DNA of 50,644 nucleotides, taken from the NCBI GenBank assembly GCA_003163875.1, contig PLRK01000104.1, positions 571-51,214 of the forward strand, read 5' to 3'. The stretch's first letter is position 1. Every line of letters starts with the position of its first letter. Below the pieces are notes generated by a model. The model was not told the origin of the DNA and ran no database searches. It saw only the letters and a list, made by a program, of their open reading frames with translations. The DNA is from Acidimicrobiaceae bacterium. GTDB lineage: Bacteria; Actinomycetota; Acidimicrobiia; Acidimicrobiales; RAAP-2. A program made the translations under genes and the position numbers. Of the stretch, positions 1 through 11,463 are shown piece after piece.

Positions 1-2138
1 CGGGCACGCGCCTCGACGGATTCTTATCGCTCGCCGCCGAATTCGGTGCGGCCATCGTCGCAACCTGCATCGACGAAGAAGGACAGGCGCGCACGGCCGA
101 ATGGAAGGTGCGCGCGGCACGTGCCATCACCGATCTCGCCGTCACGCGCTACGGCTTGAGTGCGCACGACATCTTCATCGACCCCCTCGCCCTACCGTTA
201 TCGACGGGCATGGTCGAGTCGCGACGTGACGGCATCGAAACCCTCGAAGCAATCAGGCGCATCAAGTCCGAGCTTCCCGGCGTGCGCACGATCCTCGGGT
301 TGTCCAACATCTCCTTTGGACTCAATCCGGCAGCCCGACAAGTGCTCAACAGCGTGTTCTTGCACGAAGCCGCCGAAGCCGGCCTCGATGCCGCAATCGT
401 GCACGCATCCAAGATCCTTCCTCTCTCGCGCGTCGACGACGACGCGCGACGCATCTGCCTCGACCTCATTTATGATCGGCGAACCGACACGTATGATCCC
501 CTCGCCGAACTCCTTCGGGCCTTCGAGGGCGTCTCGACGTCCAGCCAGAATCAGCACTCGCTCGACGACCTCGCACTCGATGAGCGATTGCGACAGCGCA
601 TCATCGATGGCGCCCGTGTGGGTCTCGACGACGACTTGAGCGAAGCAATGAGCGCCGGCATGAAACCACTCGACATCGTCAATGACCTCCTGCTCGACGG
701 GATGCGCGAAGTGGGCGATCTCTTCGCCTCGGGAGAGATGCAGCTTCCCTTCGTGCTCCAGAGTGCCGAAACCATGAAGGCCGCCGTGGCGTTCCTCGAG
801 CCCCACATGGAGAAAAGTGATCAAGGGGGAAGGGGACGCGTCGTCCTCGCGACCGTGAAGGGCGACGTCCACGACATTGGCAAGAACTTGGTCGACATCA
901 TCTTGACCAACAATGGCTACGAAGTCATCAACCTCGGCATCAAGGTGGGCATCAACGAGATGCTGACCGCGGTCGAAGAAGAGCACGCTGACGCACTCGG
1001 GATGAGTGGGCTACTCGTCAAGTCGACGTTGATCATGCGCGAGAATCTCGAATTGATGAACGAGCGCGGAATGAGCAACGTGCCGGTACTGCTCGGCGGT
1101 GCCGCGCTCACGCGAACCTACGTTGAACGCGACCTGCGCGAGGTCTACGAGGGACGACTCTTCTACGGCAAGGACGCCTTCGAGGGCTTGCGCGTGCTCG
1201 ATCGCCTGGGTTCAATGGCGAAATCGGGCGAGGAGGACCCTCACTTCGGGCGTGAGATCTCAGAGAGGAAGGTCCAACGTCGATTCCGCGACGAGCAAGC
1301 GATCCCCGACAACCTTCCCGCCCGAAGTCCCGACGTCGATCAGGACAACCCACTCTTCCCACCTCCATTTCTCGGCAGTCGTGTCGCGAAGGGCATGTCG
1401 ATCGACGAGATCAGCGACTACTTGAACCTCACCGCATTATTTCGAAATCAATGGGGCTACCGCCCAGACGACGGCGAAGATGACATAGCCTTCAAGGAAC
1501 GAGTGAGCGCGGTGCTACGAGAGCAGGTGGGCATCGCGAAGCAAGAGGATTTGCTTATTCCCCAAGTGGTGTGGGGGCACTTCCCCGCGGCGTCAGACGG
1601 CACGTCACTGATCATCTTCGACGATGACGAACGCACGAGTGAACTGACTCGCTTCGTCTTTCCTCGCCAACACGAGGCGCCCTATCTCTGCATCGCCGAC
1701 TTCTTTCGCTCGACGGACAGCCCCGATCACGACTACGCGAGTTTCATGCTCGTCACGATGGGGGCGAAGATATCGGAGCGTTGCCAAGAACTCTTCGCGG
1801 AGAATCGCTACACCGACTATCTGCTCTTGCATGGTCTCGGCGTCGAAATGGCCGAAGCACTCGCTGAGATGTGGCACAGGAGGATTCGTGAAGAACTTGG
1901 GTTCGTCGAACACGACGGGCCAACGCTCACTGGCCTCTTTCGTCAGCAGTATCGAGGCGGTCGATACTCGTGGGGCTATCCGGCTTGCCCGGATTTGAGT
2001 GACAACGCGAAGGTGGCATCGCTCTTGGACGCCAGTCGCATCGGCGTCGTCGTCTCTGAGGGTTTCCAATTACACCCGGAGCAAACGACCGACGCCATCA
2101 TTTGCCATCACCCGATGGCCAAGTACTTCATCGCCTAG
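1..2138 (+). CDS. metH: Methionine synthase, cobalamin-dependent (5' truncated by window edge)
   Basis: MetH transfers a methyl group from methyltetrahydrofolate to homocysteine through a bound cobalamin in the cytosol. The reading frame is open from base 3, upstream of the GTG at 108 used in the ORF track, and reads as the end of the pterin-binding domain (TCIDEEGQARTAEWK). The true start therefore lies outside the window. Next come the cobalamin cap and binding domains, with the B12-ligand motif DVHDIG near residue 252 of the ORF-track protein. The C-terminal AdoMet reactivation domain follows, with RYSWGYPACPD and a closing HHPMAKYF. The homocysteine-binding half is not in the window. The gene ends 31 bp before the next one on the same strand. 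Confidence 0.95.
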   Translation, partial: GTRLDGFLSLAAEFGAAIVATCIDEEGQARTAEWKVRAARAITDLAVTRYGLSAHDIFIDPLALPLSTGMVESRRDGIETLEAIRRIKSELPGVRTILGLSNISFGLNPAARQVLNSVFLHEAAEAGLDAAIVHASKILPLSRVDDDARRICLDLIYDRRTDTYDPLAELLRAFEGVSTSSQNQHSLDDLALDERLRQRIIDGARVGLDDDLSEAMSAGMKPLDIVNDLLLDGMREVGDLFASGEMQLPFVLQSAETMKAAVAFLEPHMEKSDQGGRGRVVLATVKGDVHDIGKNLVDIILTNNGYEVINLGIKVGINEMLTAVEEEHADALGMSGLLVKSTLIMRENLELMNERGMSNVPVLLGGAALTRTYVERDLREVYEGRLFYGKDAFEGLRVLDRLGSMAKSGEEDPHFGREISERKVQRRFRDEQAIPDNLPARSPDVDQDNPLFPPPFLGSRVAKGMSIDEISDYLNLTALFRNQWGYRPDDGEDDIAFKERVSAVLREQVGIAKQEDLLIPQVVWGHFPAASDGTSLIIFDDDERTSELTRFVFPRQHEAPYLCIADFFRSTDSPDHDYASFMLVTMGAKISERCQELFAENRYTDYLLLHGLGVEMAEALAEMWHRRIREELGFVEHDGPTLTGLFRQQYRGGRYSWGYPACPDLSDNAKVASLLDASRIGVVVSEGFQLHPEQTTDAIICHHPMAKYFIA

Positions 2139-2169
2139 GACTCTACTTTTCGTCTAACTTTGAGACGCA

Positions 2170-3696
2170 ATGACGTCTAGAACCACGCGTCGTCGATTTC
2201 TGCAGGCTTCCGGCTCCCTTCTGGGGAGCGTGCTCGCCACGTCTCGCGTCGCGGGGGCATCAACCGATGCTCCACTTGGCACACTGCAGGTGAGTGCGAC
2301 CATCCAGCAGGAAAACCAAAAGCTCGGGGATGGCTCGTGGATCATGGGACGCCCAGCCCAACCAGGCGACATTGAGGGCTACGCGAGTGCGCCGAGCGTC
2401 AACCTGGGCGAGACCATCTCGTTCTTCGTCAGCACCGTCGCCACGCACTACCGCGCCAAAGTCTTTCGCATGGGTTACTACCAAGGTTACGGTGCCCATC
2501 TCGTCGAGACCAGAACTCCCCTTTCTGGTCGACGCCTCGACATCCCGACGCCTGACGTGAACAACACCGTCGACTGCGATTGGCCAGTGTCCTTCACGCT
2601 CGAGGACACGGGGAACTACGTACCTGGTCAATACCTCGTTCGATTGGAACTCCCCACTGGCGAGTATTCGTTCATTCCCTTCTTGATACGTGACGACGAG
2701 TCCACGTCAACATACGTCTACATGAGTTCAGTGAATACGTGGCAGGCCTACAACGCATGGGGCGGCTACAGCCTCTACCGCGGCGCCGACCACTACGGCA
2801 ACACTGATTTCGACGAAGGGGTTCGCGCCACCATCGTCTCGTTCAACCGCCCGTACAGTCGTCACTTCGGCAACGGTTCAGGCGACTTCGTAGGCAACGA
2901 ATTTCCTTTTCTGTTCCTCGCCGAGAAATTGGGGCTCGATCTCTCCTACTGGACCAACGTTGATCTGCATCAACGCGGCAACGCGCTTACCCAACACCAA
3001 GCCCTCATCTCGCTCGGTCACGACGAGTACTACTCGCCGCCGATGCGCCTGGCCGCCACCAACGCCATCGACGCCGGCGTCAACGTCGCGTTCCTTGGAG
3101 CGAATTTCTGCTATCGCAAGATTCGTTATCTCGAGAGCTACAACGGTGCGAACCGTCTCATGGTCAACTATCGCTCGATCGCGGACCCGATCTACGCGAG
3201 CGATCCTTCGGCGACAACGGTGAACTGGTCCGATTGGCCATCGGACACACCCGAGAGCACGTTCTCTGGCTCGCATTGGGGCGGAGTACCCGGCGAAGGG
3301 TCACTCGTCGTGTGCGACGCCTCATCATGGCTCTGGAGTGGCGCCGGGCTCGATGACGGCGACGTGCTCGAAGGCGCCCTCGGTGGGGAGTTCAATAATC
3401 ACAACCCCACCGTCACGAACCCGCCCAACGTGCAGCTATTCGGCCACTCGCCCGTCGTCGGCGGCATCAGCGATATCACCTACTCGGCACAACCTGATCA
3501 GGGCGGCGTCTTTTGCACCGGGACTGGCTGGTGGATCTATCGACTCTCGAATGCACCACTACTGGGAAACCGTTGGGTCCCTGCACCCGTGCCCGGTGTC
3601 ACGTCGCCACTCACGACGGCTACCCAGAACCTTCTGGCGCTCCTTGGCGGGGGTCCCTGCGGACTCTTCATGCCGTCGGTCGCCACTCTCGCCTAG
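2170..3696 (+). CDS. Tat-exported N,N-dimethylformamidase beta-subunit-like protein
   Basis: The N-terminus is a clear twin-arginine signal (TTRRRFLQASGSLLGSVLA) with probable cleavage after ASRVAGA-type residues, so the protein is exported folded. The mature part (about 475 aa) resembles the C-terminal domain of the N,N-dimethylformamidase large subunit, a family common in actinobacteria. I recognise it from blocks such as FRMGYYQG, SSVNTWQAYNAWGG, SLGHDEYYS and FLGANFCYRKIRY. DMFase hydrolyses formamides with a mononuclear iron, but the substrate of the exported actinobacterial relatives is unknown to me. No small alpha subunit is adjacent. A TAACTT -10-like box lies 9 nt before the ATG. 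The stop shares a CTAG with the convergent lipBA gene. Confidence 0.8.
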   Translation: MTSRTTRRRFLQASGSLLGSVLATSRVAGASTDAPLGTLQVSATIQQENQKLGDGSWIMGRPAQPGDIEGYASAPSVNLGETISFFVSTVATHYRAKVFRMGYYQGYGAHLVETRTPLSGRRLDIPTPDVNNTVDCDWPVSFTLEDTGNYVPGQYLVRLELPTGEYSFIPFLIRDDESTSTYVYMSSVNTWQAYNAWGGYSLYRGADHYGNTDFDEGVRATIVSFNRPYSRHFGNGSGDFVGNEFPFLFLAEKLGLDLSYWTNVDLHQRGNALTQHQALISLGHDEYYSPPMRLAATNAIDAGVNVAFLGANFCYRKIRYLESYNGANRLMVNYRSIADPIYASDPSATTVNWSDWPSDTPESTFSGSHWGGVPGEGSLVVCDASSWLWSGAGLDDGDVLEGALGGEFNNHNPTVTNPPNVQLFGHSPVVGGISDITYSAQPDQGGVFCTGTGWWIYRLSNAPLLGNRWVPAPVPGVTSPLTTATQNLLALLGGGPCGLFMPSVATLA

Positions 3697-5318
3697 CGAC
3701 GCGTTGGCGCCGCGACCGGTGTGGCGTCACTCAACGCCTTCTTCGCGTGATAACTCGACCTAGTCAAGGGTGATGCCTGGACGTGACGCAATCCGAAACC
3801 CTCACCAATGAGGACGAGTTCATCAAATTCTGAAGGTTCCCACCAACGCGCGACGGGGAGATGCTGCTCAGTAGGTCGCAAGTACTGGCCAATCGTCGCG
3901 ATCGACACGCCCACCGACGCCACGTCAGCCAACGTCTCGACCACTTCGTCGCGGGTCTCACCGAGTCCGACCATCATTCCTGACTTCGTCGTGAAGCCCG
4001 CAGCGACGCTTCGTGCGAGTAGCGTGAGCGAACGCGCGTAACCCGCGCTCGGGCGCACCGCGCGCTGCAGTCGGGCGACAGTTTCGATGTTGTGGTTGAT
4101 GACGTCGGGTTCAGACGCAAAGATGAGTTCCAACGACGCGAGGTCGCCCTTCAAATCGCTGATCAACACTTCGACATTGGTGGACGCCGAGCGACGCCGG
4201 ATGGCGCGGACCGTTTCGCCAATGGCGCCCGCGCCGCCGTCGACGAGGTCGTCGCGCGCGACACAGGTAATGACGGCGTGCGCGAGTCCGAGACGTACGA
4301 CGGCTTCGGCGACGCGCTCGGGCTCGGTTGGATCAAGCGCCAGTGGCTTTCGCGTGTCGATGAGGCAGAATCCACACGCCCTGGTACAACGCTCACCGTT
4401 GACCATGAACGTCGCGGTGCCCTCCGCCCAACACTCGAAGATATTGGGACACCCCGCTTCCTCGCACACGGTCACGAGTCGTAGATCCTCGGTGAGTGTG
4501 CGAAGCGACTGATATTCGAGGCCCATGTGCGCCTCGATGCGCAACCAGTCGGGTTTACGCGATCGAAGCGCAATTCCCGCGTCAGGGTCAACGCCCGCCT
4601 TTCGCAAGCGTCGCAGCAAAGGTCGCTCCGATGACGTGCTCGACGCGCTACGGTCAACGCGCGCCACGCTGTGCGTGTCGCCGAATCGAAGCGATAACTC
4701 TTCACCCAGTCGCTCTTCGACCTCGAGCGCACTCACGCTGAGTCCAAGCGAACGCAACGAACCTACGGGTTTATCGGTGATACCGCACGGATTGATCTTG
4801 GCGAAACCATTGAGGTCGATATCAACATTCAGGGCCACGCCGTGCAACGTCCGGCGCACGTCGCGCGCATTTCGTTCGGTGCGAACGCCCACCGCCGCGA
4901 TCTTGGAGGGTCGAGCTTCGAGGTGGGCCCACACGCCGGGATAGCCGTCGAGGCGTCCAATCTCACCAAGCGTGTGCTGCTCGTCGACTCCTCGCACGGT
5001 CGCGATCACGGCGTCCTCGAGGTCACGAACGTGCGCCTTACCCGCTGAAGGATCATCGGCGACGGTACGAATTGCCCAGGCGACGACCTGGCCCGGGGCG
5101 TGGAACGTCACGTCGCCGCCGCGATCGGCGTCGACGACGACGGCATCGAGCGCGTCGAGTGGAACGAGGAAGTTCTCTTCCTGGGTGCGTACCCCTCGGG
5201 TGTAGGTAGGAGGGTGCTCGAACAACAACACGTAGTCGTCATTGGCTTGCAACAAGGCACGTTGTAAGTCATTCGCCTCGGCGAACGAGATTCGCCCCAG
5301 GTGACGGCGACGAAGCAT
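3693..5318 (-). CDS. lipB-lipA: LipB-LipA fusion: octanoyltransferase / lipoyl synthase
   Basis: One 541-aa frame contains both enzymes of de novo lipoylation. Residues 1 to about 225 are LipB, with RGGDVTFHAPGQ at about 67-77, catalytic Lys139 in SKIAAVG and Cys178 in NPCGI. After a Ser-rich linker (about 224-235), residues 240-541 are LipA. The auxiliary-cluster cysteines are C285, C290 and C296 (CEEAGCPNIFEC), the radical-SAM triad is C311, C315 and C318 (CTRACGFC), and the C-terminal RSSY that ligates the auxiliary cluster is present at about 520. All catalytic residues I can check are intact, so both halves should work. The ATG directly follows the E2 stop with no gap, implying co-translation with the lipoyl acceptor protein. 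LipB and LipA are normally separate proteins. Confidence 0.95.
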   Translation of the reverse strand: MLRRRHLGRISFAEANDLQRALLQANDDYVLLFEHPPTYTRGVRTQEENFLVPLDALDAVVVDADRGGDVTFHAPGQVVAWAIRTVADDPSAGKAHVRDLEDAVIATVRGVDEQHTLGEIGRLDGYPGVWAHLEARPSKIAAVGVRTERNARDVRRTLHGVALNVDIDLNGFAKINPCGITDKPVGSLRSLGLSVSALEVEERLGEELSLRFGDTHSVARVDRSASSTSSERPLLRRLRKAGVDPDAGIALRSRKPDWLRIEAHMGLEYQSLRTLTEDLRLVTVCEEAGCPNIFECWAEGTATFMVNGERCTRACGFCLIDTRKPLALDPTEPERVAEAVVRLGLAHAVITCVARDDLVDGGAGAIGETVRAIRRRSASTNVEVLISDLKGDLASLELIFASEPDVINHNIETVARLQRAVRPSAGYARSLTLLARSVAAGFTTKSGMMVGLGETRDEVVETLADVASVGVSIATIGQYLRPTEQHLPVARWWEPSEFDELVLIGEGFGLRHVQASPLTRSSYHAKKALSDATPVAAPTRR

Positions 5319-6533
5319 CTAGCGCTCGCTCTCCAAGTCCATGCCGGCGAGTAATTCCGCCACTCGCTCGAGATAATTGACCGCCGACACTGGCTCACAG
5401 ACGCGGTGATCAAAAGACAGGCCCAACACCAAACGTCGTCCCGGGGCGACCGTCTCCTTACCATTCTTCACGACGACGACGGGTACCTTGCGAACAGCAC
5501 CCACGCTCAACGCCGCGACCTCTGGTTGGATGATGATGGGCTCGGTGAAGAGGGTGTTCTCGCTGGGTGCACCGACGATCGTGAATGTGCCACCCATGAG
5601 ATCGTCCGTCGTCAATTGGCGCGACGCCAATCGCTCACCCAGTTCACTCACCCGACGCGCGAGCGCACGCAAGGTAAGGCCGGCCGCCGCATGGACGACC
5701 GGTACGAGCATGCCGTCCTCCGCCACGTGGCGCATGACGCCCAAATTCACCGTGCGATGGATCGTCAATTGATCCTCGTTGTACGTGGCATTCAAGAACT
5801 CGAACTCAGCCAAGGCGCGTACCGCGGCGAGACTGACGACCATCTCGTCGCTGATGGTCACCCCGTCACGGGTCACGCGTCCCGCCGCCTCCAACTCAGC
5901 GAAGACCGTGGCGTCCACTTCGATGGCGACGAAGCCGTGGGGGGTGCTCTGCGTCGACACCGACATGTGTTGGCCCATGCGACGTTGTCCATTCGAGAGG
6001 GGTACCACTACCTCTTCGGTTGGTCCATCCAAGACGGCGCGCTCGGCGTCACGGCGAGTGATCGCTCCCCCGGGACCAGAGCCCTGGACGGTCGACGGCT
6101 CGACACCACCGTCACTCAATATCCTTCGCACGACCGGTGAGACGACGACGCCACTTTGCGCGTTGGCGTCCACCGATGGTGCCGGCACTGGCGCCGGTAT
6201 CGCCTCGACGGCGGAAACGTCAGGCGTCGCCGGAGCCTTCGCGGCCGATGGCTCGGTCTGCGTCGAGCTGGCACTCGGCGCGGGCGAACCCGCACTGGCG
6301 TTCTCGTCGATCACAGCAACGCGCGACCCCGTTTCGACGGTGTCGCCCTCACCGGCCAAAATCTGCACTAACACGCCCGCCGCAGGTGAGGGCATCTCGG
6401 AGTCGACTTTGTCAGTCGAGACTTCGAAGAGGGGTTCATCACGCGCGACGGCATCGCCTATCTTCTTGAACCATTGCGTGATGATTCCTTCGGTGACTGA
6501 CTCACCTAACGACGGAAGCGTGACGTCAACCAA
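5319..6533 (-). CDS. sucB: 2-oxoacid dehydrogenase E2, dihydrolipoyl acyltransferase (single lipoyl domain)
   Basis: This is the E2 core of a pyruvate, 2-oxoglutarate or branched-chain dehydrogenase complex; the sequence alone does not settle which. Domains in order: one lipoyl domain (about 1-76) with the lipoylated lysine in STDKVDSE, an Ala/Pro-rich linker (about 80-125), a peripheral subunit-binding domain (about 131-168, VSPVVRRILSDGG) and the acyltransferase domain to the end. The active-site block reads SFDHRVCEPVSA, where the family has DHRxxDG: the histidine is kept but Asp-Gly is replaced by Glu-Pro. The usual Asn-x-Gly loop after GGTFTI is also replaced. The start overlaps the end of lpd by 8 bp and the stop abuts lipBA. 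No E1 gene is in the window. Confidence 0.88.
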   Translation of the reverse strand: MVDVTLPSLGESVTEGIITQWFKKIGDAVARDEPLFEVSTDKVDSEMPSPAAGVLVQILAGEGDTVETGSRVAVIDENASAGSPAPSASSTQTEPSAAKAPATPDVSAVEAIPAPVPAPSVDANAQSGVVVSPVVRRILSDGGVEPSTVQGSGPGGAITRRDAERAVLDGPTEEVVVPLSNGQRRMGQHMSVSTQSTPHGFVAIEVDATVFAELEAAGRVTRDGVTISDEMVVSLAAVRALAEFEFLNATYNEDQLTIHRTVNLGVMRHVAEDGMLVPVVHAAAGLTLRALARRVSELGERLASRQLTTDDLMGGTFTIVGAPSENTLFTEPIIIQPEVAALSVGAVRKVPVVVVKNGKETVAPGRRLVLGLSFDHRVCEPVSAVNYLERVAELLAGMDLESER

Positions 6534-7941
6534 CGTGCAATCCTCGTCCGGCGAGTGCGATGAGCGTTTCGCCGAATGTCTCGGAGAGCGATGGGTGCGG
6601 TTGGATGAGGGCGGCCGCTTCTTCGGCGGTGGCTTCCCAGTTGACGGCGAAATAACCCGCCCCGAGTTGTTCGGTCACCCACGGGCCCGCCATGTGGACC
6701 CCGAGGATCTGACCGGCACTGCCATCGGCGCGCTTTTCAGCGATGATCTTGACGACGCCGTCTGTGTCGCCAATGATCTGCGCGCGACTGTTGCCACCAA
6801 AGGGATCCTTCTTGACAACGACGTCGTAGCCCTTTTCCTTGGCCGCGGCTTCGGTGAGTCCGCAGAACGCGACCTCCGGATTCGAGTAGATCGCCCAGGG
6901 GACTCGGTCGTAGTCGACGGGAACGACAGGTTCGCCGAGGATTGATTTGATGGTGACGATGGCTTCGGCGAAACCGACGTGCGCGAGCTGGGGCGTGTTC
7001 GCCACCACGTCACCCACGGCGTAGACGTTGGGGTTCGACGTGCGCATGTACGGATCAGCGACGACGAATCCTCGCTCGTTGATCTCGACGCCAGTTCCCT
7101 CACCCAGCAGACCTTCGGTGCGAGGACGTCGCCCAACTGACACGACCACCATGTCCACCTTGACGTCTTCGCCACCTTCGATGTTGACCGACGTGCCACC
7201 CTTGTTTGGTTTGTGACCAGTGATGTTGACGCCCACTTGGATCTCGATGCCACGCTTCTTGAAGGCGCGCTCGACGACCTTGGCGACTTCGGCGTCGCAA
7301 CCAGCGAGGATCGACGGGAGTCCTTCGAGGATGGTGACCTTGGTACCCATGTCGGCCAACAGAGACGCGAACTCACAGCCAATCGCCCCGCCACCAATGA
7401 CGGCGGCAGTTTCGGGGAGCGCCTCGAGATTGAGGAACTCATCAGAGGTATAGACGATCTTTCCATCGACGTCGATGCCCGGTAGCGTGCGCGGTACCGA
7501 TCCCGCCGCGATGATGACGTTCTTCCCCTTCGCGATGACGCCAGCGTCTGCGCCGTCGAGTACCGTGACCGTGAGATCCTTGTCGAGTCGCCCCGTGCCT
7601 TCGAAGATGGTGACCTTTCGGCCCTTTAAGAGACCCGACAGACCCTTATAGAGCTTGTCGACGATGTCGTTCTTTCGTGCTTGGCTCACGGCGAAATCCG
7701 TTTTGATCTCTCCAGTGCTGAAACCAAACGCACTCGAATGTTCGAGCGTGCGGTGCACGTGGGCGGTCTCGAGGAACTCCTTCGCGGGTACGCAACCACG
7801 GTGAAGGCAGGTACCACCCACCTTGTCGCGCTCAATGATCGCGATGTTGAGTCCGGCACTTGCGCCGTACAGGGCGGCGGCGTATCCACCGGGCCCTCCT
7901 CCGATGACGACAACATCGAACTGTTGGACCTCGTTAGCCAC
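6526..7941 (-). CDS. lpdA: Dihydrolipoyl dehydrogenase (E3)
   Basis: This flavoprotein reoxidises dihydrolipoamide with NAD+. It has the FAD-binding GGGPGGYAAA motif, the redox disulfide GGTCLHRGCVP, the NAD-binding VIGGGAIGCEFAS, the second FAD block YAVGDV and the C-terminal dimer-interface His-Pro in QPHPSLSET. The ORF track starts at a TTG (7956). I prefer the GTG at 7941 because AAGGGA lies 6 nt upstream of it, and it gives a protein starting VANEVQQFDVVV, like other E3 proteins. It is the first gene of the lpd-E2-lipBA run. A TAGGAT hexamer (complement of 7984-7989) upstream could be its -10 box. Confidence 0.95.
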   Translation of the reverse strand: MANEVQQFDVVVIGGGPGGYAAALYGASAGLNIAIIERDKVGGTCLHRGCVPAKEFLETAHVHRTLEHSSAFGFSTGEIKTDFAVSQARKNDIVDKLYKGLSGLLKGRKVTIFEGTGRLDKDLTVTVLDGADAGVIAKGKNVIIAAGSVPRTLPGIDVDGKIVYTSDEFLNLEALPETAAVIGGGAIGCEFASLLADMGTKVTILEGLPSILAGCDAEVAKVVERAFKKRGIEIQVGVNITGHKPNKGGTSVNIEGGEDVKVDMVVVSVGRRPRTEGLLGEGTGVEINERGFVVADPYMRTSNPNVYAVGDVVANTPQLAHVGFAEAIVTIKSILGEPVVPVDYDRVPWAIYSNPEVAFCGLTEAAAKEKGYDVVVKKDPFGGNSRAQIIGDTDGVVKIIAEKRADGSAGQILGVHMAGPWVTEQLGAGYFAVNWEATAEEAAALIQPHPSLSETFGETLIALAGRGLHVG

Positions 7942-8020
7942 GGCCGTTCCCTTCAATCTTCCTAGTGCTCAACCCCCTAGGGAATCCTAATGTTCTACCC
8001 ACGGGCCCAGGCGCCAGGCT

Positions 8021-8458
8021 CTAGGAATGCCGACCCCGCTGGGTGTCGGCAGCCTGGGTCGCCAACTCGTCGACGAAGTCATTCATGACGTCGCCCGAAT
8101 GACCCTTAACCCAACGAAACGTGATGTCACGTCCGCTCTCGAGGGCGAGGACAAACAGCTCCTCCCATAGATCACGATTCGCGACGGGTTGGCCTTGGGA
8201 GTTCTTCCAATTGCGACGCAGCCACCCGTTGTACCACTTATCGTTGAAACACTTGACGACGTAGTTCGAATCACTCACGATCTCGAGGGGACTTTCGGGA
8301 TTCTCCTTCAGCGCTTCGATGACCGCGATGACCTCCATTCGTTGGTTGGTCGTATGCGCATCGGCTCCACTGGCGAATGATTCTGCACCACTCGCCCACG
8401 CCCATCCCCCCGGACCCGGGTTACCGCGGCACGCGCCGTCGGTATGTATGCGTTTCAT
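8021..8458 (-). CDS. rnhA: Ribonuclease HI
   Basis: The protein degrades the RNA strand of RNA-DNA hybrids in the cytosol. All four acidic catalytic positions are visible: Asp in HTDGACRGNPG, Glu in NQRMEVIA, Asp in VSDSNYV and the late Asp in DVMNDFVDELA. The length of 145 aa is normal. I chose the ATG at 8458 rather than the ORF-track start (8476) because its ATG overlaps the TGA of the upstream rrf2-type gene as ATGA, which implies translational coupling, and because MKRIHTDG is the usual N-terminus. Confidence 0.95.
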   Translation of the reverse strand: MKRIHTDGACRGNPGPGGWAWASGAESFASGADAHTTNQRMEVIAVIEALKENPESPLEIVSDSNYVVKCFNDKWYNGWLRRNWKNSQGQPVANRDLWEELFVLALESGRDITFRWVKGHSGDVMNDFVDELATQAADTQRGRHS

Positions 8459-8913
8459 ATCGTCCGAGTGACCCACGAATCCGGATCAGAGGTGAAACGC
8501 GTCACGGCAACTGGCATCTCGCCGCGCAAGACCTGTCCGAGGGTGACGTGCTCGAGAACCTCACGCAACGCGCCACGGACCGCTACCCATACGTCACGCA
8601 AGTGCTTGGCTTCACCCTCATAGATGAGCGTCTCGGGTCGCATGCCGCGTACCCCCGCCATCGGACCGCTCACGACGCGAAGGATGTCAGCGATCATGAT
8701 CGAGTCGGGGTCCCTCGCGAGTTTGAAGCCACCTTCGGGACCTCGCTGGGACGTCACCAACCCACCTCGACGAAGATCGGACATGATTGCACCGAGAAAC
8801 TTCGCGGGCAGTTCTTGCTCCTGTGCCAAGTGTTCGGCACTTATCGAATTCGTCGTCGCCGCGAGGGTCAAGAGCGCGCGTATCGCGTACTCGGCCTTGG
8901 CGGGGATCTGCAT
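8455..8913 (-). CDS. Rrf2-family transcriptional regulator without Fe-S cysteines
   Basis: The winged-helix regulator begins MQIPAKAEYAIRAL, the typical Rrf2 N-terminus, followed by the recognition helix and wing with RGPEGGFKLARDP. IscR/NsrR-type members bind a cluster through three cysteines at about residues 90-110. This 152-aa protein has none in that region (GPMAGVRGMRPETLIYEGE), so it should sense something other than a [2Fe-2S] cluster, or act as a CymR-like member. I chose ATG 8913 because upstream ORF-track residues do not look like the family and a CAGAAT box sits exactly 6 nt before the ATG. The gene is divergent from thiE and coupled to rnhA. Confidence 0.88.
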   Translation of the reverse strand: MQIPAKAEYAIRALLTLAATTNSISAEHLAQEQELPAKFLGAIMSDLRRGGLVTSQRGPEGGFKLARDPDSIMIADILRVVSGPMAGVRGMRPETLIYEGEAKHLRDVWVAVRGALREVLEHVTLGQVLRGEMPVAVTRFTSDPDSWVTRTI

Positions 8914-8919
8914 AGAACC

Positions 8920-8925
8920 ATTCTG
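8920..8925 (-). promoter_or_regulatory. -10 box, leaderless start of the Rrf2 gene
   Basis: On the minus strand CAGAAT is followed by GGTTCT and then the ATG. It differs from TANNNT only in its first base. The 6-nt spacing places the predicted transcript start at the start codon. Confidence 0.4.
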
Positions 8926-8966
8926 CCCCACGACAGGCCCACAAACTGTCAGCCGGTCCAAACTCC

Positions 8967-8978: not shown

Positions 8979-9623
8979 GTGTTCGATCTACGCTCGCGCC
9001 GCCTGTATCTTTGCGTCCCCGCGCGCAAGGACATGGCGGTTTTTCTCCCTCAAGTCCTTCGAGGAGGTGTCGACATCGTTCAATTGCGAGAAAAACACCT
9101 CACCGATGAGGTTCGCCTCGCGTCGGCGCGGACCATGCGACCGATTTGCCGAGATTTCGGGGTCCCTTTCATCATGAACGATTCGCCAGAACTCGCTCTC
9201 GAGAGCGGGGCCGACGGCGTGCACGTGGGCCAAGACGACGTCAGTGTCGAGCGATGCCGACGACTTATGGGCGATACCGCCATTATTGGACTTTCCACGC
9301 ACGCGAAGGATGAATTCCTCGAAGGACTGTCGAGCCAAGCGAGTTACTTGAGCGCCGGACCCATCGTCCCCACTCCCACGAAGCTGGGTCGGCCGGGCAC
9401 GGGTGTCGCGTACGCGACTGCCTGCGAGCAACAGAGCGACCGACCCGTCTTCGTCACCGGAGGCGTGACCGACCAGAACGTCACTTCACTCGTCAACGCC
9501 GGACTTCGCCGCTTCGTCATCGTGCGTTACTTGACCCAAGCGAAAGAACCAGAAAAAGCTGCTCGCCTCCTTCGCGAAGCGCTTGACATCGCGCTCTCAG
9601 CGGTGACGGTCGAGCCAACCTAA
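8979..9623 (+). CDS. thiE: Thiamine phosphate synthase
   Basis: ThiE joins HMP pyrophosphate to the thiazole phosphate to give thiamine phosphate. The 214-aa TIM-barrel shows QLREK, the FIMNDSPELA and ADGVHVGQDD blocks for substrate and Mg2+, the SAGPIVPTPTKLG loop and the C-terminal phosphate-binding VTGGV. No other thiamine gene is nearby. The GTG start has a TAAAGT -10 box 6 nt before it. The last 27 bp overlap the convergent hydrolase gene. The final motif reads VIVRYLTQA, where the family more often has a VSAI-type sequence; this looks like normal divergence. Confidence 0.9.
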   Translation: MFDLRSRRLYLCVPARKDMAVFLPQVLRGGVDIVQLREKHLTDEVRLASARTMRPICRDFGVPFIMNDSPELALESGADGVHVGQDDVSVERCRRLMGDTAIIGLSTHAKDEFLEGLSSQASYLSAGPIVPTPTKLGRPGTGVAYATACEQQSDRPVFVTGGVTDQNVTSLVNAGLRRFVIVRYLTQAKEPEKAARLLREALDIALSAVTVEPT

Positions 9624-10343
9624 CAGCGTCGCAACCATTCGTGGATCAGCGCGCAGCTGGTGCCCGGCCCCTTGGATGATGCGCAGTTCCGCTCGACCTT
9701 CAGCACTCGCGAGAAGATCTCGCGCGTCGCTCACGGGTACTTCGAGGTCGTCGGCGCCATGGCCAATGAGCAGTCGCCTCGGTGGTATGAGCGCTATCGA
9801 ACCCAAGGGGTCGATGGCGAGTACGTCGTCGCGAAGCGCCTCGGGAGCAAGCAGGTCGATTTTGTTGCCAACGACGCCGGCGACTTGGACGGAGCGATGA
9901 AATTCATCAGCGCTGGAACACCAATAATCGAGGTGTGCGGGAGCAGCGAAGGTCGCAACGCCGCGTACGCGTTCGTCACGCGCGGCGAGGGCGAGGGCGA
10001 GCGAACCACCAAATCCAAATCCGGCGAGGGAGATTCGACGATCGTCTTCATCGACCCGATCGAAGATGACGCGAAGATCAGCCAACCACTGACTCGCCGA
10101 GAAGGTACCAGTACTGCCACCCACGCCCGAGAACGTCCCGGTCGCCACAACCCATCCAGACTCGTTCGCCAGATGCTCCGCGAGTTCGGGGAGAAGTCCG
10201 GCCGCCTGTCGCCCCATCCCTAACGCGCGAGGTAGTCCGTGCACCAAAACGAGAACGTGGCCCGTGTTTGGTCGCGCACTCGAGGTCGCGATGCGCAAAT
10301 CCAGCGTCGAGTTCGCGCTCTTGAGTTGCTCGTGCGCGAGCAC
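9597..10343 (-). CDS. Alpha/beta-hydrolase-fold protein lacking the nucleophilic serine
   Basis: The 248-aa fold is recognisable from LVLVHGLPRALG (oxyanion region), GHGADD (acid loop) and GAGHQLRAD (histidine loop). The nucleophile elbow reads LAGFGFGGSLAL, codons GGA-TTT-GGA-TTT-GGT-GGT, so glycine sits where serine, cysteine or aspartate normally is. It may be a non-catalytic member or use another residue; I recall similar GFGxGG elbows in other actinobacterial proteins. I chose the GTG at 10343, just after the acyl-CoA dehydrogenase stop; the long ORF-track N-terminus is read through that gene. It probably forms an operon with that dehydrogenase. Confidence 0.75.
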   Translation of the reverse strand: MLAHEQLKSANSTLDLRIATSSARPNTGHVLVLVHGLPRALGMGRQAAGLLPELAEHLANESGWVVATGTFSGVGGSTGTFSASQWLADLRVIFDRVDEDDRRISLAGFGFGGSLALALAARDERVRGVATFAAPAHLDYWCSSADEFHRSVQVAGVVGNKIDLLAPEALRDDVLAIDPLGSIALIPPRRLLIGHGADDLEVPVSDARDLLASAEGRAELRIIQGAGHQLRADPRMVATLLGWLDRHR

Positions 10344-10347
10344 GCCT

Positions 10348-11463
10348 TTAGATGTCCAAGTGTTGAGCGAGAAGTTCTCGGTGATACGCAGGATCGCCCA
10401 AGAACAACTCGGAACTCTTCGCTCGCTTGAAATAAAGGTGCGCGTGGTGCTCCCAGGTGAAACCAATACCGCCGTGAATTTGGATGTTCTCCGCGGCGCA
10501 GTGAAAGTACGCCTCGGAACAGAAGGACTTTGCGAGACTCGCCGCAATCGGTAATTCGTCATTCAGTTCTTGGGACGCCCACGCGGCGTAGTACGCCGCG
10601 GACTTCGCCGATTCGACGTCGAGCAACATGTCCGCGCACTTGTGCTTGATGGCTTGAAACGAACCAATAGGACGTCCGAACTGGACTCGTGTCTTCGCGT
10701 AGTCCACCGCATTGTTCAAGACTCGCTGCGCACCACCGACTTGCTCGGCGGCGAGCGCGGATTCGGCGACTTGGAGCATCGTCTGCAGCCCGTTGAGCGC
10801 GTCGCCCTCAGTGCCGACCAACGTAGCAGTGGCGTCGTGCAGTTCGATACGACTTTGCTTACGCGTTTGGTCCATCGTGGCGAGCGCGGTTCGCGTCACC
10901 CCTTTGGCGTCGCCCTTCAACGCGAACAGCGAAAGACCCTTTGACGTTTTCGCAGGCACGAAGATGACCGACGCGAGGTTGCCGTCGGTGACATAATTCA
11001 CGACACCATTGAGTTCGAAGCCGTCAACCTTCGCCGTCGCGGTCGTCGAGGTGGCGTTGAGGTCCCAGTTACCCGTGTCATCGGTGAGTGCCACCGTTGC
11101 GATGGTGTCGCCCGACGCAATACCAGGGAGATACGTTGCTTTGTCATCATCGTTTCCGACGAACAGCACGGCGTTCGCCGCGAGCGCGACCGTAGAGAAA
11201 TAGGGCGCGCAAAAGAGTGCCGCACCCATCTCTTCAAAGACGACGTAGAGTTCCACGGGACCGAAACCTTGACCACCAAATTGCTCAGGGATACCCAAAC
11301 CTTGGAGGGCAAGTTCCTTTGCCATCAACTCCCAGACGTCCGGGTCATATCCCTCGGGTGTCGCCATGAGACGGCGCACCTCGGTCTCGGGCGACTTCTC
11401 TTCCAAGAACCGCCGGACCATTTTTCGCAGTTCTTCCTGCTCTTCGCTAAAGCCAAAGTTCAT
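10348..11463 (-). CDS. Acyl-CoA dehydrogenase (FadE family)
   Basis: A 371-aa FAD-dependent acyl-CoA dehydrogenase. It has the N-terminal helical domain (SEEQEELRKMVRRFLEE), a mid beta-domain and the C-terminal helices with QIHGGIGFTWEHHAHLYFKRA. The Glu of the usual YEGT motif is absent (ELFLGDPAYHR). Instead Glu appears in ALAAEQVGGAQ, the position used in actinobacterial steroid-type FadE proteins that often work as heteromers. The substrate cannot be inferred. AAAGGA 5-6 nt before the ATG is a good ribosome-binding site, and TACTCT further upstream could be its -10. It is divergent from the metallo-hydrolase and upstream of the alpha/beta hydrolase. Confidence 0.9.
   Translation of the reverse strand: MNFGFSEEQEELRKMVRRFLEEKSPETEVRRLMATPEGYDPDVWELMAKELALQGLGIPEQFGGQGFGPVELYVVFEEMGAALFCAPYFSTVALAANAVLFVGNDDDKATYLPGIASGDTIATVALTDDTGNWDLNATSTTATAKVDGFELNGVVNYVTDGNLASVIFVPAKTSKGLSLFALKGDAKGVTRTALATMDQTRKQSRIELHDATATLVGTEGDALNGLQTMLQVAESALAAEQVGGAQRVLNNAVDYAKTRVQFGRPIGSFQAIKHKCADMLLDVESAKSAAYYAAWASQELNDELPIAASLAKSFCSEAYFHCAAENIQIHGGIGFTWEHHAHLYFKRAKSSELFLGDPAYHRELLAQHLDI

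Follow-up and report, generated by a model that had tools for sequence, protein, structure and literature searches.

Can one polypeptide carry both enzymes that assemble lipoate, a vitamin-like cofactor, on its carrier proteins? The question is raised by a single gene in the stretch of DNA analysed here (the window, 50,644 nucleotides), from an Acidimicrobiaceae bacterium of the Acidimicrobiia, a class of soil and water bacteria. LipB, LipA and the lipoate pathway are textbook matter: LipB is a Cys/Lys acyltransferase whose octanoyl donor is octanoyl-ACP, and LipA, a radical SAM enzyme, uses up an auxiliary cluster as the source of two sulfurs. LipB and then LipA act on the same protein-bound substrate. 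The gene, named lipBA here, has the following features.

3693-5318, minus strand: lipBA fusion, putative octanoyltransferase-lipoyl synthase, one 541-aa frame (Pfam, NCBIfam and PDB matches, motifs)
4653-5318, minus strand: LipB octanoyltransferase domain, residues ~1-222 (TIGR00214, PF21948, 1W66)
4902-4904, minus strand: K139, catalytic Lys of the LipB Cys/Lys dyad (KIAAVG), invariant in 72 fusions
4785-4787, minus strand: C178, catalytic Cys of the LipB Cys/Lys dyad (NPCG), invariant in 72 fusions
4575-4652, minus strand: interdomain linker, residues 223-248 (substitution pattern, AlphaFold2)
3696-4574, minus strand: LipA lipoyl synthase (radical SAM) domain, residues ~249-541 (TIGR00510, NF004019, 5EXI/5EXK)
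4431-4466, minus strand: auxiliary cluster motif CX4CX5C (C285, C290, C296), residues 285-296
4365-4388, minus strand: radical SAM cluster motif CX3CX2C (C311, C315, C318), residues 311-318
3750-3761, minus strand: RSSY, auxiliary-cluster ligand, residues 520-523 (motif and alignment)

The initial annotation had proposed a single frame of 541 residues holding both LipB and LipA, and this was borne out. The frame, for which the initial annotation named no strand, is open on the minus strand only, from the ATG at 5316-5318 to the stop at 3693-3695; read on the plus strand, this interval is full of stops. Pfam and NCBIfam profiles match both halves in the order LipB (residues ~1-222), linker (~223-248), LipA (~249-541). 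K139, C178, the two cysteine triads and RSSY all lie where the annotation had put them. The LipB half is covered by the LplA/LipB catalytic domain PF21948 (residues 18-208, 83.7 bits) and by the LipB profile TIGR00214 (residues 26-190, 112.6 bits for a cut-off of 83.55); it scores below the cut-off of the stricter LipB model NF010925 (139.4 bits vs 155). In a PDB sequence search the N-terminal half matched Mycobacterium tuberculosis LipB (1W66, 1.8e-28), with whose catalytic Lys and Cys K139 and C178 align, C178 being the PCG cysteine of 1W66. The domain thus has the Cys/Lys dyad of LipB, and it does not class with the LplA ligases: its best matches are LipB models and LipB structures. In the M. 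tuberculosis enzyme the catalytic roles belong to K142 and C176 (PMC9307952).

The C-terminal half is matched by several lipoyl synthase models of Pfam and NCBIfam (residues 252-532), including TIGR00510 (320.8 bits, above its cut-off of 310.25) and NF004019 (370 bits), and by M. tuberculosis LipA (5EXI, 2.3e-85, PDB sequence search). All three motifs that mark LipA (CX3CX2C, CX4CX5C and RSSY) are present. We judged the conservation of catalytic and cluster motifs on 72 aligned fusions: K139, C178, both cysteine motifs and RSS are invariant in 72 of 72, and the Y of RSSY nearly so. From these sequence features, lipBA is very probably a bifunctional lipoyl-assembly enzyme, transferring octanoyl groups to lipoyl domains before it inserts sulfur, and both activities are likely retained. 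The LipB half would octanoylate the lipoyl domain, and on that same domain the LipA half, with two [4Fe-4S] clusters, would then equip the octanoyl chain with two sulfurs.

The genes ahead of lipBA form an operon with it.

5319-6533, minus strand: E2 dihydrolipoyl acyltransferase, SucB-like, one lipoyl domain (PF00364, PF02817, PF00198)
6526-7956, minus strand: lpd, dihydrolipoyl dehydrogenase, first of the three lipoyl genes (TIGR01350, 463.8 bits, over the cut-off)
8021-8476, minus strand: RNase H, directly before lpd
8455-8961, minus strand: Rrf2-family regulator, upstream of RNase H

In reading direction the order is Rrf2, RNase H, lpd, E2, lipBA. As first annotated, lipBA starts right after the E2 gene: the TAG of E2 is followed by the ATG of lipBA with a gap of 0 nt, and this zero-gap junction suggests that the two are translationally coupled. 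An E2 gene lies directly upstream of lipBA in 94 of 101 fused loci, with a gap of 0 nt in 43 of those 94, and Lpd is encoded upstream in all 37 fused loci that have at least 3 kb of upstream sequence. The order lpd-E2-lipBA is kept in nearly the whole class sample. Among sampled actinobacteria with separate genes, E2 stands directly before lipB in just four of 36 loci. Most genus relatives with enough sequence also have Rrf2 and RNase H upstream, and the regulator may give Fe-S-responsive control of lipBA, a predicted Fe-S enzyme.

Elsewhere in the window, the gene at 2170-3696 (plus strand) has a C-terminal N,N-dimethylformamidase beta-subunit-like domain (PF20254) and a twin-arginine-like signal; it is convergent with lipBA, and the two 3' ends overlap by 4 bases. 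The frame at 108-2138 (plus strand) is the C-terminal part of a B12-dependent methionine synthase (MetH), the beginning of which lies upstream of the ORF. A 321-aa ORF at 9597-10562 (minus strand), with no Pfam match at 1e-5, overlaps an acyl-CoA dehydrogenase ORF on the same strand (10348-11463), and its true start is probably further in.

The absence of separate lipA or lipB genes elsewhere, on which the first reading depended, was borne out by protein and family searches of the genome itself (G000, 2.19 Mb in 134 contigs), which is 90% complete, so that a separate copy might still have been missed. The lipBA protein has one real match there and is the sole match to TIGR00510 and the sole match to PF21948 over the cut-off; no separate lipA, lipB or lplA-type gene was found by these searches. 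Two weak candidates were discarded: one, on contig C33, falls within a gene judged panB-like by eye; the other, on C11, a 262-aa ORF, matches PF21948 with 21.4 bits, below the cut-off. More complete genomes of the class, among them four single-contig ones (G173, G185, G192, G197), likewise each have a single match, spanning both domains. The fusion is thus the only candidate lipoate route found in this genome. Its clients would include three E2-type lipoyl-domain proteins: that of the window, one on C84 beside a large E1-like ORF, and one on C33 beside an E1-beta-like ORF (neighbours named by eye). Since GcvH (PF01597) was not found in the genome and these three E2-type proteins exist, the LipB half probably modifies E2 directly.

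We surveyed the distribution of the fusion within the Actinomycetota. The lipBA protein is matched in 162 of the 172 family genomes and in 377 of the 394 class genomes (192 of 197 genera). Fusion status was read separately from these counts, on fetched loci, and every Acidimicrobiia locus checked that reaches both domains encodes them in one frame. Five loci are cut by contig ends (L049, L058, L079, L146, L148) and L147 reaches parts only. Apparent stops counted in the matches of five genomes (G003, G178, G189, G447, G508) were set aside, the fetched loci being one open frame across both domains. The 108 fused sequences reduced to 87 non-redundant ones, 86 of them from Acidimicrobiia. The remaining one is a second LipB-LipA fusion, outside the class, in the actinobacterium G766 (L149, contig C1, ORF 961-3096, plus strand); its congener G751 (L157) has two genes in different frames. 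One sequence titled 'Acidobacteria bacterium' (L021, JAGXAY010000003.1) encodes a fusion 70% identical to that of the window, and its title or binning is probably wrong.

The other Actinomycetota sampled encode LipB and LipA in two genes, which are neighbours in most cases and often share a reading frame divided by a stop. All of the loci L054-L082 have the two genes next to each other in the same frame, which is partly an effect of the search, as it favours read-through alignments; among genomes drawn another way, different frames were found (L157, L160, L163-L165, L168). The initial annotation had suggested mapping such fusions on a phylogeny. Doing so within the Actinomycetota places them class-wide in Acidimicrobiia and in G766, and the LipA tree requires two changes between fused and separate states, at the base of the class and in G766, with 95% SH-aLRT on the branch holding the class. 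The LipB tree is noisier. The three changes on it were discounted, one long row (L165) besides G766 accounting for them; holding the class as one clade was not rejected (AU p 0.686) and even scored better. These trees fit a single fusion event for the class, no later than the common ancestor of the Acidimicrobiia sampled, and an independent one in G766. By this account, neighbouring lipB and lipA in an lpd-E2-lipB-lipA gene row would have become fused.

How the two domains are held together was addressed by structure prediction. AlphaFold2, run on the window protein with the alignment of 72 fusions, gave a mean pLDDT of 92.7 and a pTM of 0.92, with low confidence only at residues 224-228 and the last five residues. 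A distant member (48% identical, with a different linker), taken from where the class splits deepest, gave a pLDDT of 91.4 and a pTM of 0.92, from an alignment that shares sequences with the first. Foldseek retrieved 5EXK/5EXI for the LipA half and 1W66 for the LipB half. A fixed packing of the LipB and LipA domains is predicted, indirectly, from the pTM, because a value of 0.92 would be unexpected for loosely connected domains of ~220 and ~290 residues.

The linker is ~24 residues long in the genus of the window, and from ~24 to 96 residues across the class as measured between BLAST segments. Its residues 229-248 (ERPLLRRLRKAGVDPDAG..) are strongly conserved. When the window gene was compared with relatives within the genus, this stretch had 301 synonymous and 51 nonsynonymous differences, a ratio of 5.9 against 1.9 in LipB and 2.4 in LipA. 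Differences that are mainly synonymous show that the joint is translated and constrained at the protein level. AlphaFold2 predicts a short helix at 233-240, the low-confidence part of the linker being confined to 224-228. In separate LipA proteins the matching stretch, ahead of the RKPxW motif, is occupied by the N-terminal arm of LipA, and the linker can best be read as this arm preceded by a tail of LipB. Many other Acidimicrobiia (L033, L035, L043, L119 and others) share a recurring LSAFSRGxGPG-like motif in the LipB tail or linker, which is absent from the window genus.

What, then, might the fusion bring? At the least, it fixes the stoichiometry and co-expression of the two enzymes. One rigid polypeptide would set a 1:1 ratio of both sites and would raise the local concentration of the octanoyl-lipoyl domain at the LipA site. 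Direct hand-over of the octanoylated lipoyl domain from LipB to LipA is plausible: the packing of the domains is predicted to be fixed in two distant members, and the linker adjoins the stretch that corresponds to the lipoyl-domain docking belt of human LIAS. The strongest version of this idea would make lipBA a rigid two-domain machine, already fixed in the ancestor of the class: a lipoyl domain would bind a single time, at the LipA belt, and meet the LipB site and then the LipA site unreleased. We regard this as doubtful, with perhaps one chance in a few; if true, it would make lipBA a true substrate-handing enzyme.

The main competing account is that the fusion is neutral or just ensures co-expression: the domains act independently, octanoylated E2 diffuses, and any LipA rebinds it. 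It stands close to an even chance. Since it bears on what the fusion is good for and leaves the identity of the two enzymes untouched, its probability overlaps with that given above to a bifunctional lipBA. With lipB and lipA already neighbours in most other sampled actinobacteria, often in frame and one stop apart, loss of that stop would be a cheap event. The independent repeat in G766, while its congener keeps two genes, and the variable length of the linker across the class point the same way. Yet no reversal of the fusion turned up in the class sample, the domain arrangement is confidently predicted in both distant members, and residues 229-248 are more constrained within the genus than the catalytic domains, all of which speak against this account.

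It is improbable that the gene also yields free LipA (or LipB), whether through an internal start or through proteolytic cleavage of the linker. The window gene does have GGAG 6-7 bases before an in-frame TTG at residue 234, and residues 224-228 are predicted to be disordered. Candidate starts with a ribosome-binding site near the linker occur, however, in just 32 of the 108 fused sequences, at scattered positions, and no conserved internal start with such a site was found in the linker region of this set. Less probable still, by our reckoning hardly credible, is a vestigial LipB half, reduced to a docking site for lipoyl domains or no longer active in transfer. The modest LipB scores and the HAPGQ that replaces the usual HGPGQ in the window protein could be read so, but K139, C178 and the RGG..T.H..GQ core are invariant among the aligned fusions, and the genome, which has E2 proteins needing lipoate, has no other detected octanoyltransferase or lipoate ligase. 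An assembly or sequencing error joining two genes, conceivable for a metagenome-like draft of 134 contigs, is refuted, as the same joint recurs at near-identical length in dozens of independent genomes, which also settles the initial concern that it might be an artefact.

The locus thus shows well-known enzymes in an arrangement that is new and real, if modest. A class-wide natural fusion is direct genetic evidence that LipB and LipA can work side by side, and lipBA offers a single expressible protein for structures with lipoyl domains and for tests of hand-over. The fusion is also a class-level marker for Acidimicrobiia and corrects annotations that name one half only. We found no description of a LipB-LipA fusion in the open-access literature, though it may be catalogued in UniProt, InterPro or subscription reviews, and NCBIfam searches with the window protein and the class-wide set displayed no LipB-LipA fusion model. 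A paper on the evolution of lipoate assembly describes fusions of LplA with LplB.

Among known systems, the closest counterparts are LipB (1W66) and LipA (5EXI/5EXK) of M. tuberculosis, one matching each half in sequence and fold, with the Lys/Cys dyad, the cluster motifs and RSSY in common; there they are two proteins, whereas in the window they are one. In Mycobacterium (L054), lipA directly follows lipB in the same frame. The NCBIfam exception model NF053790 (LplA_LipA_fuse, bifunctional lipoate--protein ligase/lipoyl synthase) also has a cofactor-transferase domain ahead of LipA and agrees well with lipBA in the LipA half, but its front domain is an ATP-dependent ligase, whereas the front domain of lipBA is, by its matches, a LipB-type ACP-dependent octanoyltransferase. 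The window protein scores 334.9 bits for a cut-off of 800, over model positions 330-605, i.e., in its LipA half only; the model is matched by 46 of 46 proteins of the class-wide set, in the member displayed by the LipA half only. Human LIAS in complex with H-protein (8UGO, 8V0J) aligns over residues 73-356 with lipBA residues 252-526, and the LipA half superposes on it with a TM-score by target length of ~0.9 (Foldseek). Residues 66-110 of LIAS form a belt around the lipoyl carrier (PMC12246082). Because this belt aligns with residues ~245-289 of lipBA, the LipB domain, which human LIAS lacks, would be attached directly ahead of the stretch where the lipoyl domain docks.
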